A stretch of DNA of 38,300 nt, taken from positions 1 to 38,300 of the IMG/VR virus record IMGVR_UViG_3300029787_000131, one strand, 5' to 3'. The notes beneath the pieces are model-generated. The model saw only the letters and a list, made by a program, of their open reading frames with translations, had not been told where the DNA came from and made no database searches. Below are positions 17,850-31,259 of this stretch, piece after piece (within the stretch, counting starts at the first letter, position 1; every line of letters starts with the position of its first letter). This DNA is from a virus. The position numbers and the translations under genes are program-made.

Positions 17850-18112
17850 TCTTTAGGCTCCCATGACCGGGCTTCAAGCACGTAGAACATGGAATGCTGG
17901 CTTTCCGGGGTTGTACCCCTTTGGCGTGAAATTTTTTTCCGGCTAACCTTAATCCCGTAGCGTTGCTGTAATTTGTACATTGCGAAGTTTAGCCAGCATT
18001 TGATTTCGTCGTAATCCCGCCCGTCGTCCTTCTCTACAGCGTACCATTTACGCCAACGGCCTTTGGGATAATTAGACTCCGTGTGGATCGGCATTAGCAC
18101 CATGCTCATCAA
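17846..18112 (-). CDS. Small unknown protein
   Basis: At most 88 residues. The first codon of the longest frame is TTG, followed by ATGs at 18109, 18103 and 18094; the ATG at 18094 (MPIHTESNYPKGRW) is also plausible, and no ribosome site settles it. The body is Trp, Tyr and Lys rich (GRWRKWYAVEKDDGRDYDEIKCW, then MYKLQQRYGIKVSRKK) and may be an alpha/beta fold. It overlaps the upstream gene by 23-41 bases depending on start. Confidence 0.55.
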   Translation of the reverse strand: MMSMVLMPIHTESNYPKGRWRKWYAVEKDDGRDYDEIKCWLNFAMYKLQQRYGIKVSRKKISRQRGTTPESQHSMFYVLEARSWEPKE

Positions 18113-18437
18113 TAAAGCGATACGTTATCTGCTGTTCATTAAAGAACGAGAGCATGGTCTGACCATTCACACTTGGGTCCGGTAATTCACCGGCTCCCAT
18201 AACGCCCTTATCAAGCATTACGTCTTGCAATGGGGTCACACGGTATTCCGTTGTCTCCCAACCCGGTGCCAGCACAGCCGTAACATTGTACTGACCCATC
18301 AACTGACGATACGGCTTCGTGCATACATAGCACTCTGCCTCAACCGTCGTTTTTAGAAATAACGCTAAATTAGTCGCCAGCGGATCGTGACCGACAACAA
18401 ATACACGCTGTTCATCGACCCCATCTTCCTTTTCCAA
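18072..18437 (-). CDS. Unknown protein with probable TTG start
   Basis: The protein has about 121 residues, including RVFVVGHDPLATNLALFLK and FFNEQQITYRFIDEHG, an alpha/beta pattern with two Cys in AECYVCTKPY. The frame contains no suitable ATG. A TTG at 18437 has GGAG six bases upstream and is my choice; another TTG at 18449 is possible. The start overlaps the zinc-finger gene. No family is recognised. Confidence 0.5.
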   Translation of the reverse strand: MEKEDGVDEQRVFVVGHDPLATNLALFLKTTVEAECYVCTKPYRQLMGQYNVTAVLAPGWETTEYRVTPLQDVMLDKGVMGAGELPDPSVNGQTMLSFFNEQQITYRFIDEHGANADPHGV

Positions 18438-21697: not shown

Positions 21698-22003
21698 AGA
21701 GCAAGCCAGCACCGGGGTCGATAAGCCTCAACCCCATCACAAAAAGCGTTTATACTTGGTTTAAAAGGTGGACTAATTGGAGCCTGTGCGCAAACGAGCC
21801 AATTTTAAGACATCCTCGCTTGTTGACCTGAAACACAAGCCCCAAACCTGTGTTTCTTATAAGAGGGAACGCCAACAAGATACGGTGATACGCCAAATTG
21901 ATCCGTAGTGTTTGCCCTCGATGACGTTGTAAGGGCTTGTCTTGCAACGTCCCTTTTATCCCAAAAAGCGTTTGTTTTTCTCCTTTGAAACAAGGAGCAA
22001 CAA
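21698..22003. other. Gene-free stretch with two hairpins and a repeated 12-mer
   Basis: No credible gene is visible. CAAAAAGCGTTT occurs at 21740-21751 and 21962-21973, near both ends. Two inverted repeats lie between: AAACACA with TGTGTTT (21831-21855) and GACGTTG with CAACGTC (21923-21951), the latter followed by CCTTTT and possibly a weak terminator. It could hold a small RNA or a promoter; nothing is certain. Confidence 0.45.
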
Positions 22004-22168
22004 ATGCGTAAAAAACCGCCAAGTCGTCTCGCCTCAGATCTACTCACCGCCTGTGGTGAGCCCCCTCAAACCCAATCAGAAGCGTTGTCTTTAGTTCACG
22101 CAATGTATCCATGCGCGGGTCCACGGTTCGCGCGTGTCATTGCGCGTAAAGTCATGGAATGGAGATAA
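22004..22168 (+). CDS. Small basic early protein
   Basis: The protein has 54 residues, beginning MRKKPPSRLASDLLTACGEP and ending basic (RFARVIARKVMEWR). AAGGAG lies seven bases before the ATG. Its end supplies the GGAG site for the next gene. No family is recognised. Confidence 0.55.
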   Translation: MRKKPPSRLASDLLTACGEPPQTQSEALSLVHAMYPCAGPRFARVIARKVMEWR

Positions 22169-23975: not shown

Positions 23976-24307
23976 TGTCCAACAAAGATCGAGGCCGCAT
24001 TCTTGAGAAAGAAACGGAGAAGTTCTGGCAAGAACACGGCTTCGATTGCAAACGCGTGTTTGCCTCCGGGCAGTACAAAGACCAGTTGGGCGATGAGTTT
24101 TCCGGGGATGTACGCCTTGAAAACTACAAGATTGAAGCAAAGCGCCGTAAAGGCGGTTTTAAGCTTCTCTACGATGCCTTTGAGCAAGACAAGGCAGACA
24201 TCCTTGTCATCAGACAAGACCGTGCCAGACGCCTCTACGTGTTAGAGGAAAGCGTTCTTTTAGAATTAATGAAAGAGAGAAAAAATGAAATATCAGGCGA
24301 TAGCTAG
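23975..24307 (+). CDS. Holliday junction resolvase-like PD-(D/E)XK nuclease
   Basis: The protein has 110 residues. Glu near residues 11-13, Asp45 in FSGDV, and Glu54-Ala-Lys56 in KIEAKRRK give the E-D-ExK catalytic set of the Hjc-type nuclease fold. Phage proteins of this size and motif resolve branched recombination or replication intermediates. Start and stop overlap the neighbours. A general restriction-endonuclease-like protein is the alternative. Confidence 0.7.
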   Translation: MSNKDRGRILEKETEKFWQEHGFDCKRVFASGQYKDQLGDEFSGDVRLENYKIEAKRRKGGFKLLYDAFEQDKADILVIRQDRARRLYVLEESVLLELMKERKNEISGDS

Positions 24308-24476
24308 ACACATGCTTTTTGAGGAAAGCTTAAGTGCGTGGAACATAACTATAGACGACGTAAAAGACCGTGGTTACGACCTGACAAACGCGCAATTTTT
24401 GCGTCTTTCTCAAACAATTACAAAAGAAATTGAACGAGAACGCCAAAGGTTAATGGACCGGGGCATTATCATTTAA
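24285..24476 (+). CDS. Small helical unknown protein
   Basis: The protein has 63 residues, helical and charged (MKYQAIARHMLFEESLSAWN, TITKEIERERQRLMDRGIII). The start lies 23 bases inside the nuclease gene, with GAGAG upstream. No family is recognised. Confidence 0.5.
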   Translation: MKYQAIARHMLFEESLSAWNITIDDVKDRGYDLTNAQFLRLSQTITKEIERERQRLMDRGIII

Positions 24477-24482
24477 TGAAAA

Positions 24483-24506
24483 CGGGGAGAGGCATCCCCC
24501 TCCCCG
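24483..24506. other. Short G/C hairpin before the DUF932-like gene
   Basis: CGGGGAG pairs perfectly with CTCCCCG around a 10-base loop, seven bases after the preceding stop. No U-run follows. It may adjust expression between genes of the operon, and it makes a start before it for the next gene less likely. Confidence 0.5.
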
Positions 24507-24568
24507 CCGCTGTCCAAAAACAGCCAACTTATCACCAAATAAGTCACCCCCAACCTAGTGAGCTTATA

Positions 24569-25471
24569 ATGAACGATCAAGTGTTGCTTACTCCAAACGT
24601 GTATCGCATTTCCGCGCTTGGAGAATTACGTGATCTAAGCGCGTTCGACATTCCCACTGAAATCGAACACCTCAACACACAATCCGGCCTTCAAATGCAC
24701 AGCAAGTTTGGCCGTGCTGTTGTTCGCAAAGACATCAATCAGGTTATCGGGCGCATTGGGCCTCGGACCCGCCACGAGCCGTTAATCAACAACCAAAAGC
24801 GTGCTGTTCAATATATCGAAGAAAGCGGCCTCGACCTGACCGGTTGCGTTGTGACCGATACGGTATTTGACAATGGCGCACGCGCTCGTCGTCAGGTTGA
24901 GTTCCCGCGTTACGTTGTCGAGCCCCAAGTCGGAGATATCACCCGCTTTATGCTTGATATATACGACTCTCAAAACAATAGCTGGGCGTTTCAGATAAAA
25001 TTTACGGCTATGCGGCTGTGGTGCCTCAACGGCTGCACCTCGCCAGACTTCCAAATCCGTGTCTACAACAAACACGGACAAAGCAGAAACGACTTTAGCG
25101 ATGGTGTTCGTGCTATTGCTGACGCTGTAGAAAACTTCGGCAAACGCGAAGACGAGTTTCGGCGTCTCATCAACCGGCAAACACGCCCGGACGATGCAGA
25201 AGAGGTCTACAAAAAGACCATTGCGTACAGCCGCAAAGAAAAGCCGTGGGCTCCGCAGTTTTCACAGCCCAAGCTTCAAGACCTGATCGATGCTTACAAC
25301 ACAGAAGCGTCGTACGCAGGTGACAATGCGTACGCCATTTACAACGGTGCAACACGTTGGGCAACGCACTTTGATACGCGCGGCAACCGCGCCAATGCCA
25401 TTGTTAACCGTCAGTCCAAAGTGGCTAACATGCTTAAATCCAAAGTATGGAAGGATCTAATTGATGCTTAA
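24569..25471 (+). CDS. DUF932-like protein
   Basis: The protein has 300 residues. The run INNQKRAVQYIEESGLDLTG, the central FTAMRLWCLNGCTSPDF (MRLxCxNG) and the late YNGATRWATH match the DUF932 family of phage and plasmid proteins, whose role is not firmly known but which often lie beside recombination genes. The frame is open back to an ATG at 24476 that would read through a hairpin; MNDQVLLTP at 24569 looks the natural start, though its ribosome site is weak (GTGAG). Confidence 0.75.
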   Translation: MNDQVLLTPNVYRISALGELRDLSAFDIPTEIEHLNTQSGLQMHSKFGRAVVRKDINQVIGRIGPRTRHEPLINNQKRAVQYIEESGLDLTGCVVTDTVFDNGARARRQVEFPRYVVEPQVGDITRFMLDIYDSQNNSWAFQIKFTAMRLWCLNGCTSPDFQIRVYNKHGQSRNDFSDGVRAIADAVENFGKREDEFRRLINRQTRPDDAEEVYKKTIAYSRKEKPWAPQFSQPKLQDLIDAYNTEASYAGDNAYAIYNGATRWATHFDTRGNRANAIVNRQSKVANMLKSKVWKDLIDA

Positions 25472-25920: not shown

Positions 25921-26379
25921 CCGTTCTACTGCTAACTCAAACCAGCGCAAATCGCTTTTGCGCTGTTTTATTTCCCCTTCTACAGCTTGATAGAAATCTG
26001 CCGGTTTAGGCATTGTGGGGTACACATGCTTTTTGAGGACTTCTTTTGCCGACCGCATGAGCAAATCGGCAGGTATATCTCGCAAGATGCTGTAATAGAT
26101 TTCGGTTGCAGCTTCAGACGGTAAGTCGACCTGTAGCGTTTCCGTAACCATGTCGAGCATTCTGGCAATTTCTGGTACTTCAGATTTTGCCAGACTTGCC
26201 TCAAGAACCGATATAGCATCTTCCAAGCGGTCATCGATTTCGATGTGATCCAGATCAAACGGTGCCGTGGAGAGGATCATCTCGGCTCGCCGCCTGAGCA
26301 AGGCGCTGTCGGTTTTGCTGTCGCCGCTCGTCGGCAGTGATTTTGTGCGGTCGATTGGCACTACGTTGTTGTCTGTCAT
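25900..26379 (-). CDS. Replication protein P-like (helicase loader candidate)
   Basis: The protein has 159 residues. An acidic helical centre (HIEIDDRLEDAISVLEASLA) is followed by helices and a C-terminal part with KKHVYPTMPKPADFYQAVEG, which resembles the end of lambda P-type loaders where a Trp/Tyr-Pro-x-Pro-x-x-F/L segment occurs. Position directly after an O-like gene supports a helicase loader. ATG 26379 has GAGGA nine bases upstream; ATG 26397 adds six residues. The start lies 125 bases inside the O-like gene in another frame. Confidence 0.55.
   Translation of the reverse strand: MTDNNVVPIDRTKSLPTSGDSKTDSALLRRRAEMILSTAPFDLDHIEIDDRLEDAISVLEASLAKSEVPEIARMLDMVTETLQVDLPSEAATEIYYSILRDIPADLLMRSAKEVLKKHVYPTMPKPADFYQAVEGEIKQRKSDLRWFELAVERLEAIGL
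25943..25973 (+). terminator. Terminator of the SSB operon inside an opposing gene
   Basis: CAGCGCAAA pairs with TTTGCGCTG around TCGCT, then TTTTATTT follows. This strong rightward terminator lies 22 bases after the last plus-strand stop codon and within the C-terminal codons of the minus-strand P-like gene (GEIKQRKSDLRW). Confidence 0.85.
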
Positions 26380-26926
26380 CTTTAAATTTCCTCGCATTTC
26401 TCATCCAAGAACGAAAAGCGGCGTTCCAGTTCACCTTCTTTGAAGTTTTTGAACCAGAAGCCCACCAATAATCACAAAACGCTTTAAACTGATCGTTGAG
26501 ATCGAACTCGATACCGTATTCGCTGGTAAGAGCATTCCACGTTTTTTCATCGCATTGAAAATCGTCTGGTAAACGATGCGGTGCCTTCTTCTTATTGTTT
26601 AATTGTTCTTGGTATTGTTCCGGATCAGCGGGCTGATGGGTCGTATCAGTATGCTGATAGGTGTTATCAGTATGCTGATGGGTCAGGTGGTATCGTGACG
26701 ACGTACCACGCACTCTCTCAACACGGATGTAAGCGTTTTTTTCGAGTTGAGAGATCGCTGAACTAACCCATGCCTGAGAACGATTAAGGCACTGGCTGAG
26801 TTCAGCTTGGCTCGGCCAGCAGATCCCGTTTTTTGATGCGTAGGTCGTAAGACACGCATAGAGCGCAATCGCGTCAGGGGTTAAGTCACCCTCAAACAGC
26901 GAGGCAGGTACGATACCGAACCTCAT
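26255..26926 (-). CDS. Replication initiator O-like protein with N-terminal winged helix
   Basis: The protein has 223 residues. Residues about 10-75 form a winged HTH (LTPDAIALYACLTTYASKNG, CWPSQAELSQCLNRSQAWVS, LEKNAYIRVERV), as in phage replication organisers. A His/Thr/Gln repeat-like linker follows (HQHTDNTYQHTDTTHQPADP), then the C-terminal block FKAFCDYWWASGSKTSKKVN, WNAAFRSWMRNARKF, a signature of many phage O-like proteins. It should bind the origin and recruit the loader. The repeated CAGTATGCTGATGGG-type DNA in the linker could itself be origin iterons, as in lambda O. The start overlaps the upstream stop (ATGA). Confidence 0.8.
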   Translation of the reverse strand: MRFGIVPASLFEGDLTPDAIALYACLTTYASKNGICWPSQAELSQCLNRSQAWVSSAISQLEKNAYIRVERVRGTSSRYHLTHQHTDNTYQHTDTTHQPADPEQYQEQLNNKKKAPHRLPDDFQCDEKTWNALTSEYGIEFDLNDQFKAFCDYWWASGSKTSKKVNWNAAFRSWMRNARKFKDDRQQRSANRPHKITADERRQQNRQRLAQAASRDDPLHGTV

Positions 26927-29677: not shown

Positions 29678-29849
29678 TCTCACAGGACTTGAGTCCGTTA
29701 ACGAGTTCGGTTGTATGCGGCTTGCCGCTCGAATAGCCGACCTCAGAGCAGACGGCCACAATATCAGTGATTGTTGGGTCGAAAAACCAAACGGAAAACG
29801 CTTTAAGCGTTACTTCCTCAAAGAAACACAACAAGAATTGGAGTTATGA
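29631..29849 (+). CDS. Small winged-helix (HTH_39-like) protein
   Basis: The protein has 72 residues: TQNEAILNYLQSGGSLTGLE, then FGCMRLAARIADLRADGHNI and a C-terminal wing with GKRFKRYFL. This is the common small HTH protein found in phage recombination operons (I recall PF14090). GGGAG precedes the ATG at 29631. The start overlaps the zinc protein gene by 47 bases. Confidence 0.75.
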   Translation: MTQNEAILNYLQSGGSLTGLESVNEFGCMRLAARIADLRADGHNISDCWVEKPNGKRFKRYFLKETQQELEL

Positions 29850-30436
29850 TGGCAAAGTTACCCGAAAAAATTAAAGGCATTCTCAATCAATACGGTCTAG
29901 GCAAAGAAGCTGTATGGGATTGCCACGGCACGTGGGTTATGTACCACGCACCACTCGAGCAAATTGCCGCAAAGGCGGGTGTCACTTACGACGACCCAAC
30001 AGTTATCGAAGCCGACACCAAAAACAAAACTGCGACTATTATGATGCGCGGTCATTTGCCATCCGGTGCATCAGAAGTCACGTTTGGCGAGGCGTCACCG
30101 CAGAACTGCAAAAACAGCTATCCGTGGGCAATGGCAGAAAAACGTGCCAAGGACCGGATTGTATTAAAACTCGTTGGCTTGCACGGCTCCGTCTACAGTA
30201 TGGACGAAGCTGATTGGCAAGATAAGCCCCCTGCCCCACAGGCTGAACCAGCCAACGAAAGTACACCACCGGCTTCAATTGATGACATTAAAGACGCCAT
30301 CAATAAATGTGCGACCAAAAAGGCGTTGATAGAGTTCAAGCGCACGCTTGGTCCGAAAGTCGAACATTTCGACGCTAAACAGATCGCTGAGTTGAAACAA
30401 CACAGTGACTCACACGAAGCATCACTGGCTGCATAG
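29849..30436 (+). CDS. Single-strand annealing protein candidate
   Basis: The protein has 195 residues. The central segment YPWAMAEKRAKDRIVLKLVG followed by LHGSVYSMDEAD is widespread in phage proteins next to RecE-like nucleases and resembles the A-E-K/T-x-A-x-x-R helix of Rad52/ERF-type annealing proteins. A Pro/Ala-rich linker (about residues 130-145) and a helical C-terminal domain follow. Position after exonuclease, as bet after exo, supports the role. The second of two adjacent ATGs has the better spacing from GGAG. Confidence 0.6.
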   Translation: MAKLPEKIKGILNQYGLGKEAVWDCHGTWVMYHAPLEQIAAKAGVTYDDPTVIEADTKNKTATIMMRGHLPSGASEVTFGEASPQNCKNSYPWAMAEKRAKDRIVLKLVGLHGSVYSMDEADWQDKPPAPQAEPANESTPPASIDDIKDAINKCATKKALIEFKRTLGPKVEHFDAKQIAELKQHSDSHEASLAA

Positions 30437-30716
30437 TCCGTCTAACCCCCCTAGTGCGTCCGTATTCGCACACCTTCATGGGCGGCCCTTACACAGTCGT
30501 CAGTAGTCGAGAGCAGATGTCGTCTGATTAATGCCCGCAATTGATGTTTAGATTAATCAGTCGGGTAAGTTAGTTGGGGGGAGACGTTAAAAGTCGGGAT
30601 GTTGGCTAATAAATCTGCTCACGTGTAACAGGTAGACCGGGATGCCAGGATAAGTTTAGCGCAGTCGATGGCAGTCAATTGCGTTAGACACCCGGACCAC
30701 ATACAGAGAGGGATAT
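30437..30716 (+). ncRNA. Structured RNA candidate between recombination and regulator genes
   Basis: A 280-base gap holds a nested set of helices. CGTCT-AA-CCCCCC (30439-30451) pairs with GGGGGG-AGACG (30576-30586), leaving a two-base bulge. GTGCG pairs with CGCAC (30454-30471). CTGATTAAT pairs with ATTAATCAG (30524-30560), and its loop CCCG (30534-30537) can pair with CGGG (30562-30565) as a pseudoknot. CCGGG pairs with CCCGG (30637-30695), enclosing GTTTAGCGCAG with TTGCGTTAGAC (30654-30689; 11 pairs, three G-U). I match it to no known RNA family. It could be a cis-acting leader for the following gene or a free RNA. Confidence 0.55.
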
Positions 30717-31082
30717 ATGGTTAAAATTAACAATGCAAAACATTTAGCTGCGTTATCGCAGAGATCTATTTTTGCAGAACTATGCGACGGTGACGATCCG
30801 CAACAAGTTCAACGCACGTTAGATCGATTAGGTGTCGGTCAGAAAGCAAGGATCGAGTTGCCACTCCGCGACCTCGATAACTGGAAAGAAACAATCGAAA
30901 TGCTGAAAGGTTTAGCGAACGACCTAACAGCAATTTATATCAACGAAGACTATAATGATTTCGAAAAAATTAGGGCTGGCTTTAACAGAAGCAGAGGCGT
31001 ACAGTTTTCTTTATCAGAGCTACACCGCACTCGTCCGACTTACTCGGACTACACCACATCTAGTGGTAAGAGGAGGTGGTAG
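30717..31082 (+). CDS. Unknown protein downstream of the structured RNA
   Basis: The protein has 121 residues. The N-terminal 85 residues look like a normal folded protein (KHLAALSQRSIFAELCDGDD, RTLDRLGVGQKARIELPLRD, IEMLKGLANDLTAIYINEDY). The last 35 (FNRSRGVQFSLSELHRTRPT...) are low in order and overlap a second frame, so the gene may in truth have been extended through it. GAGAGGG precedes the ATG. No family recognised. Confidence 0.55.
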   Translation: MVKINNAKHLAALSQRSIFAELCDGDDPQQVQRTLDRLGVGQKARIELPLRDLDNWKETIEMLKGLANDLTAIYINEDYNDFEKIRAGFNRSRGVQFSLSELHRTRPTYSDYTTSSGKRRW

Positions 31083-31251
31083 CATCAATTTCCCACAATA
31101 TACATTATGCGACAGTGCATTAACGCAGGATTCTTCTAAGTTCCTGCCCGGTTTTGTAATAAACGAACTTTCGACAAATCGTCACAAAATCTATCCACAG
31201 AAACACGCAATAAAATTGCGCCGTTCCCTGTTTGTCCAAATCAACATCTAG
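30955..31251 (+). CDS. Possible excisionase-like HTH protein in an overlapping frame
   Basis: The frame has 98 codons. The pattern LTEAEAYSFLYQSYTALVRL followed by TPHLVVRGGGSINFPQYTL resembles the MerR/excisionase HTH (HTH_17) layout: helix, turn, recognition helix, then a VRxGGxxxFP wing. Its first 128 bases overlap the preceding gene. The C-terminal part is AT-rich and runs through an operator, so its real end or reality is uncertain. The ribosome site is weak. Confidence 0.35.
   Translation: MISKKLGLALTEAEAYSFLYQSYTALVRLTRTTPHLVVRGGGSINFPQYTLCDSALTQDSSKFLPGFVINELSTNRHKIYPQKHAIKLRRSLFVQINI
31115..31128 (+). promoter_or_regulatory. Operator near 31.1 kb
   Basis: GTGCATTAACGCAG is the operator consensus with one end base changed. 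It is the rightmost copy, about 130 bases before the small gene at 31260. TATACATTAT just upstream is a possible -10 box; a -35 is not clear. Confidence 0.6.
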
Positions 31252-31259
31252 GAACCGCC

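Follow-up and report, generated by a model that had tools for sequence, protein, structure and literature searches.

The non-coding gap in front of a small gene of a tailed phage (ORF1) holds, in its 3' third, a genuine, small and conserved hairpin of about 75 bases, which is undescribed and absent from Rfam. With moderate confidence, we propose that the region carrying it, positions 30626 to 30716, serves the early-operon mRNA as a structured leader acting in cis, directly before the ribosome-binding site of ORF1. The window, namely, the whole stretch of DNA that was analysed, is a 38.3-kb IMG/VR virus record, in which PHROG matches to terminase, head-tail adaptor, major head, and tail proteins indicate a tailed phage. 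Its gap divides in two, with a conserved 3' part (30626 to 30716) and a non-conserved 5' part (30439 to 30586). A first-pass annotation of the same DNA had described a single structured RNA of 257 bases, perhaps controlling the gene at 30717; the structured RNA in front of this gene is supported for the 3' third, and the 257 bases are narrowed to about 75. The features are as follows.

30437..30716, + strand: non-coding gap (leader) between a 196-aa gene and ORF1
30439..30586, + strand: 5' domain with predicted helices, sequence not conserved
30626..30716, + strand: 3' module (leader hairpin and conserved flanks), covered by model R1
30637..30641, + strand: 5' strand of helix P1, CCGGG, pairing with 30691-30695, identical in both phages
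30642..30653, + strand: one-sided internal loop of 12 nt, AUGCCAGGAUAA, identical in both phages and equal to the putative mini-ORF AUG-CCA-GGA-UAA
30654..30665, + strand: 5' strand of helix P2 (12 bp), pairing with 30678-30689
30678..30689, + strand: 3' strand of P2, pairing with 30654-30665
30691..30695, + strand: 3' strand of P1, CCCGG, pairing with 30637-30641
30706..30713, + strand: ribosome-binding site of ORF1, GAGAGGGA, recognized by sequence, with GGGAGGA at the same place in the related phage
30717..31082, + strand: ORF1, 121 aa, putative Xer/dif-associated factor
31088..31115, - strand: dif-like site, CTGTCGCATAA-TGTATA-TTGTGGGAAAT, candidate attP, 5 bases past ORF1

The gap between the two genes is real and measures 280 nt (from the open reading frame at 29846-30436 to that at 30717-31082), versus 200 nt in the related phage contig (L002/L057). 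The gap contains no long open reading frame, that is, none of at least 60 aa. The 196-aa gene upstream has relatives in four phages, one of them annotated as a recombination protein, and the known phages that carry this gene (Rhizobium RHph_Y1_10, Pelagibacter Hodr, and Pseudanabaena Pam5) show no comparable gap there. In agreement with the initial failure to match the region to any known riboswitch, tRNA, tmRNA, or intron, the Rfam 15 covariance models gave no match at the curated (gathering) threshold in either the window or L002, a search of the region relaxed to E values up to 5 returned chance matches only, and ARAGORN found no tRNA or tmRNA.

The related contig, of 10.4 kb, is syntenic with approximately 23 to 34 kb of the window, and in it the module is likewise flanked by homologues of the two genes. 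The two modules align at 80% over 109 bases, including an exact run of 30 bases (AGACCGGGATGCCAGGATAAGTTTAGCGCA); the conserved stretch starts with AACAGG at 30627 and reaches the ribosome-binding site, and the remaining gap is unalignable. Both copies present P1 (CCGGG/CCCGG), the 12-nt one-sided loop, and a 12-bp P2. In particular, all 17 base pairs are kept between these two sequences, 12 of them in P2, where four pairs differ, one by replacement of both bases (UA to GC) and three by that of a single base, and the apical loop of P2 differs in length between the two phages. The covariation in P2 is suggestive, two sequences being too few for statistical support. The annotation had placed an 11-bp helix inside the 5-bp stem 30637-30641/30691-30695; the helix exists, but it comprises 12 bp (30654-30665/30678-30689). 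Furthermore, the 75-nt module is more stable than its shuffles (z of -4.0, with 0 of 200 shuffles equally stable), its copy in L002 has a z of -2.7, and in a scan of the genome only 2 of 1,276 windows of 75 nt scored as low as the module. Searches for additional copies led back to the related contig: it alone was found by DNA search in phages and plasmids and by exact 14-, 15-, and 16-mers of the module in IMG/VR, where the other k-mer matches lie in unrelated contexts, and model R1, built from both copies, gave no further convincing match in 486 kb of fetched DNA.

The 5' domain behaves differently. The helix of 5+6 bp with a 2-nt bulge (CGTCT/AGACG plus CCCCCC/GGGGGG) is present in the letters, as had been reported, and the folding z of the domain is about -2.9. 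However, the genome as a whole folds better than its own shuffles, and its 160-nt windows (n = 478) average -0.88 (sd, 1.21), with 35 below -2.7, so that the domain is unexceptional. Its 11-bp closing helix is matched in 500 of 3,000 shuffles; L002 has, in the corresponding position, a closing helix of 14 bp that only 22 of 3,000 shuffles match, and a loose architectural similarity of the two 5' domains is therefore possible. The 5' approximately 190 bases are thus a variable transcript stretch without demonstrated conserved structure.

The pseudoknot ascribed to this domain is disfavoured. The 9-bp hairpin on which it was based (30524-30532/30552-30560) can be read in the letters, but its pair probability is about 0.0, since the GCCCG in its loop is taken up by pairing with CGGGU (probability, 0.97 to 1.0) in a nested alternative helix, and a fold with the hairpin imposed is less favourable by about 5 kcal/mol. 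By steric reasoning, moreover, an H-type pseudoknot would be poor, as a 1-nt loop would have to span 9 bp; taken with the pairing probabilities, this led us to reject it. The lowest folding z values among the 160-nt windows of the genome, all more extreme than that of the reported gap region, occur at 18081-18240 (+ strand), 21921-22080 (+ strand), and 26081-26240 (both strands), with -5.8, -5.1, and -4.9, respectively.

The gene behind the module is real, because ORF1 shares 76% identity with its L002 counterpart and the differences fall 28/13/49 at codon positions 1/2/3. Its distance from the module is short, with 10 nt between the end of P1 and the Shine-Dalgarno sequence GAGAGGGA and 21 nt to the start codon, and the module adjoins the start of this same gene in both copies known. 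This placement, together with the reality of the gene, argues for control of ORF1 in cis: the leader hairpin probably tunes ORF1 translation, where both its action as RNA and its job are what we infer. The exact run of 30 bases amid an otherwise unalignable gap supports the leader, as does the better folding of the + strand than of the - strand (z of -2.76 and -0.83, respectively, against dinucleotide shuffles of 30439-30695), whereas the occurrence of distant ORF1 relatives beside other dif-like sites without such a leader speaks against it.

It is possible to hypothesize that the hairpin, with its 5-bp P1, 12-nt loop, and 12-bp P2, would act as RNA and would set the frequency of ribosome starts on ORF1. 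Most likely, the loop would be occupied by a trans-acting factor, or by the ribosome itself via the mini-ORF that fills it, and, once occupied, would hold or open the hairpin. Should the leader work in this way, it would be an undescribed cis-regulatory RNA before a gene seemingly tied to a dif-like attachment site, and translation control would be linked to the use of the host Xer recombinases by a tailed phage. Simple sequestration of the Shine-Dalgarno sequence is not supported: pairing with the linker appears in both folds but no better than in shuffles, and the accessibility of the ORF1 site is mid-range among 44 phage genes.

The frame AUG-CCA-GGA-UAA fills the 12-nt loop from the first to the last unpaired base in both phages, and a weak conserved AGG lies 9 nt upstream of its AUG. 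It is conceivable, even if on the unlikely side, that this mini-ORF is the functional core, that is, a three-codon, UAA-terminated minigene that loads a ribosome beside P2 and would tune ORF1 translation by occupancy, re-initiation, or peptidyl-tRNA drop-off, with the hairpin only positioning the minigene. The axe-txe operon provides a precedent, with a cis-acting leader minigene of two codons in an AU-rich leader (PMC8708949), which makes ribosome loading in the loop a reasonable, if putative, mechanism here. As in that operon, a very short frame from AUG to UAA precedes, in cis, the gene that it would regulate; start and stop indeed stand close together at 30642-30653, and identically in L002. 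Different from axe-txe, the putatively translated frame has three codons and lies inside a conserved hairpin loop. Against a central role of the mini-ORF, it was noticed post hoc, its ribosome-binding site is weak, and its AUG abuts the P1 stem; by our own rough estimate, such a frame would arise by chance at a given place about 7 times in 10,000, and more often if short frames anywhere in the 36 conserved bases were counted.

The long helix of P2, with its variable tip and conserved flank inside a long operon, would also suit an RNA-processing or antitermination site on the operon transcript (e.g., RNase III cleavage in P2, or an antiterminator site) that does not concern ORF1 translation. 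We regard this as unlikely, given that typical RNase III sites are longer than P2 and that the conservation of the loop would be left unexplained. Phage leaders and sites of this kind include the lambda N leader and sib. The lambda N leader is, in addition, a structured phage mRNA leader controlling translation of the next gene, and it resembles the module in that a transcript hairpin stands directly before a regulatory phage gene; the module, however, has no sequence or Rfam relation to it, and no boxB, nut, or RNase III site is demonstrated in the module.

The conservation between the window and L002 forms a block from 30627 to about 31255, which passes through ORF1 into non-coding DNA and includes the dif-like site, and beyond which the genes differ. 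This extent would fit a double-stranded DNA element, either an operator or an accessory site of the nearby dif-like site, with the hairpin incidental. We consider such an element quite unlikely, because the pairing in P2 survives base changes even as the P2 loop diverges, as expected of RNA, because the 12-nt loop is conserved on one side only, and because a gene of 366 nt separates the module from the dif-like site. The least probable reading, and a very improbable one, is the annotated single RNA of 257 bases with a pseudoknot, possibly a free regulator. In its favour are the z of the whole gap and the long closing helix that L002 likewise has at the same place; yet the 5' domain cannot be aligned between the two phages and is ordinary for this genome in stability, the pseudoknot is disfavoured, and the + strand of the region showed no promoter-like site, which, with the element abutting the same gene in both copies, argues against a free regulator RNA.

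Returning to the proposed leader, it may serve an Xer-type integration gene. ORF1 has no Pfam or PHROG match, searches with the protein or a degenerate pattern in phages, plasmids, IMG/VR, and GTDB contigs found relatives only in L002/L057, profile searches against the PDB returned chance matches only, and structure prediction (pLDDT, 39) gave no usable model. A weak match joins ORF1 to a profile of small genes that flank dif-like sites (36 columns; hhalign P of 0.00067; probability, 27%); the genes in this profile had been chosen by a short motif, and the match is therefore a lead, not proof. ORF1 may belong to an Xer-related integration module. A Xer activation factor of TLC phage, reportedly described by Midonet in 2019, would be comparable in role to the one suggested here for ORF1.

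The dif-like site, which is a recombination site of the bacterial chromosome type, shares 21 of 28 positions with E. coli dif (K-12 record), where shuffles reach 17 to 19, and that of L002 (6154-6181) shares 20 of 28. Its XerC arm and centre are intact and its XerD arm is divergent; in the attP of TLC phage, similarly, the XerC arm and centre are good and the XerD arm is divergent (PMC5357621). The window resembles an IMEX of the TLC phage type (PMC5357621) in its dif-like site and in having no match to a tyrosine integrase or resolvase (PF00589 and PF00239), although the record may be incomplete. Different from that type, the window belongs to a tailed phage that encodes head, tail, and terminase proteins, for which no prophage copy was found and integration is putative, and the comparison concerns ORF1 and the site, not the leader RNA. 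As a long shot, the leader would be a novel RNA switch: a mini-ORF of three codons would make up the conserved loop of its hairpin, and through it the ribosome or a trans factor would gate expression of a phage-encoded helper of host Xer recombination. A tailed phage that lacks an integrase would then control at the RNA level whether it integrates.

An 18-base core of the dif-like site occurs in 28 IMG/VR contigs (27 besides the window), versus about one expected by our own rough estimate, in differing reading frames and with mostly divergent XerD arms. The leader was not found in the other contigs with dif-like sites. A resolvase-type recombinase is present in 6 of the 9 other dif-bearing contigs tested, and dif-like sites may hence differ in meaning from contig to contig; these serine recombinases occur in the source contigs of L091, L095, L097, L100, L105, and L110, several of them 1 to 2 kb upstream of the site. 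In many contigs, a similar small gene lies beside the site, with a motif like R[IL]x[IL]P...D..I..A...L..L...L. These genes (L086, L087, L091, L092, L094 to L096, L101 to L103, L105, L106, L109, and L112) encode about 100 to 160 aa with the shared motif RIxIP...DxI..A...L..L, belong to no Pfam or PHROG family, and are possibly a family of phage Xer-associated factors.

In the window, the non-coding block conserved with L002 at 31083-31259 contains hairpins (GCAGGA/TCCTGC and CGCAATAAAATTGCG) and a DnaA-box-like ATCCACA. Elsewhere, positions 24480 to 24507, where a 331-aa open reading frame (24476-25471) begins, match L057 exactly over 28 bases and form a GC-rich hairpin (CGGGGAG/CTCCCCG), which makes them either another candidate conserved structure or a sign of a misplaced start of this frame. 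Further exact matches to L057, of 56, 41, and 32 bases, lie in or near coding regions at 24134-24189 and 26535-26622 and are longer than elsewhere at such divergence.
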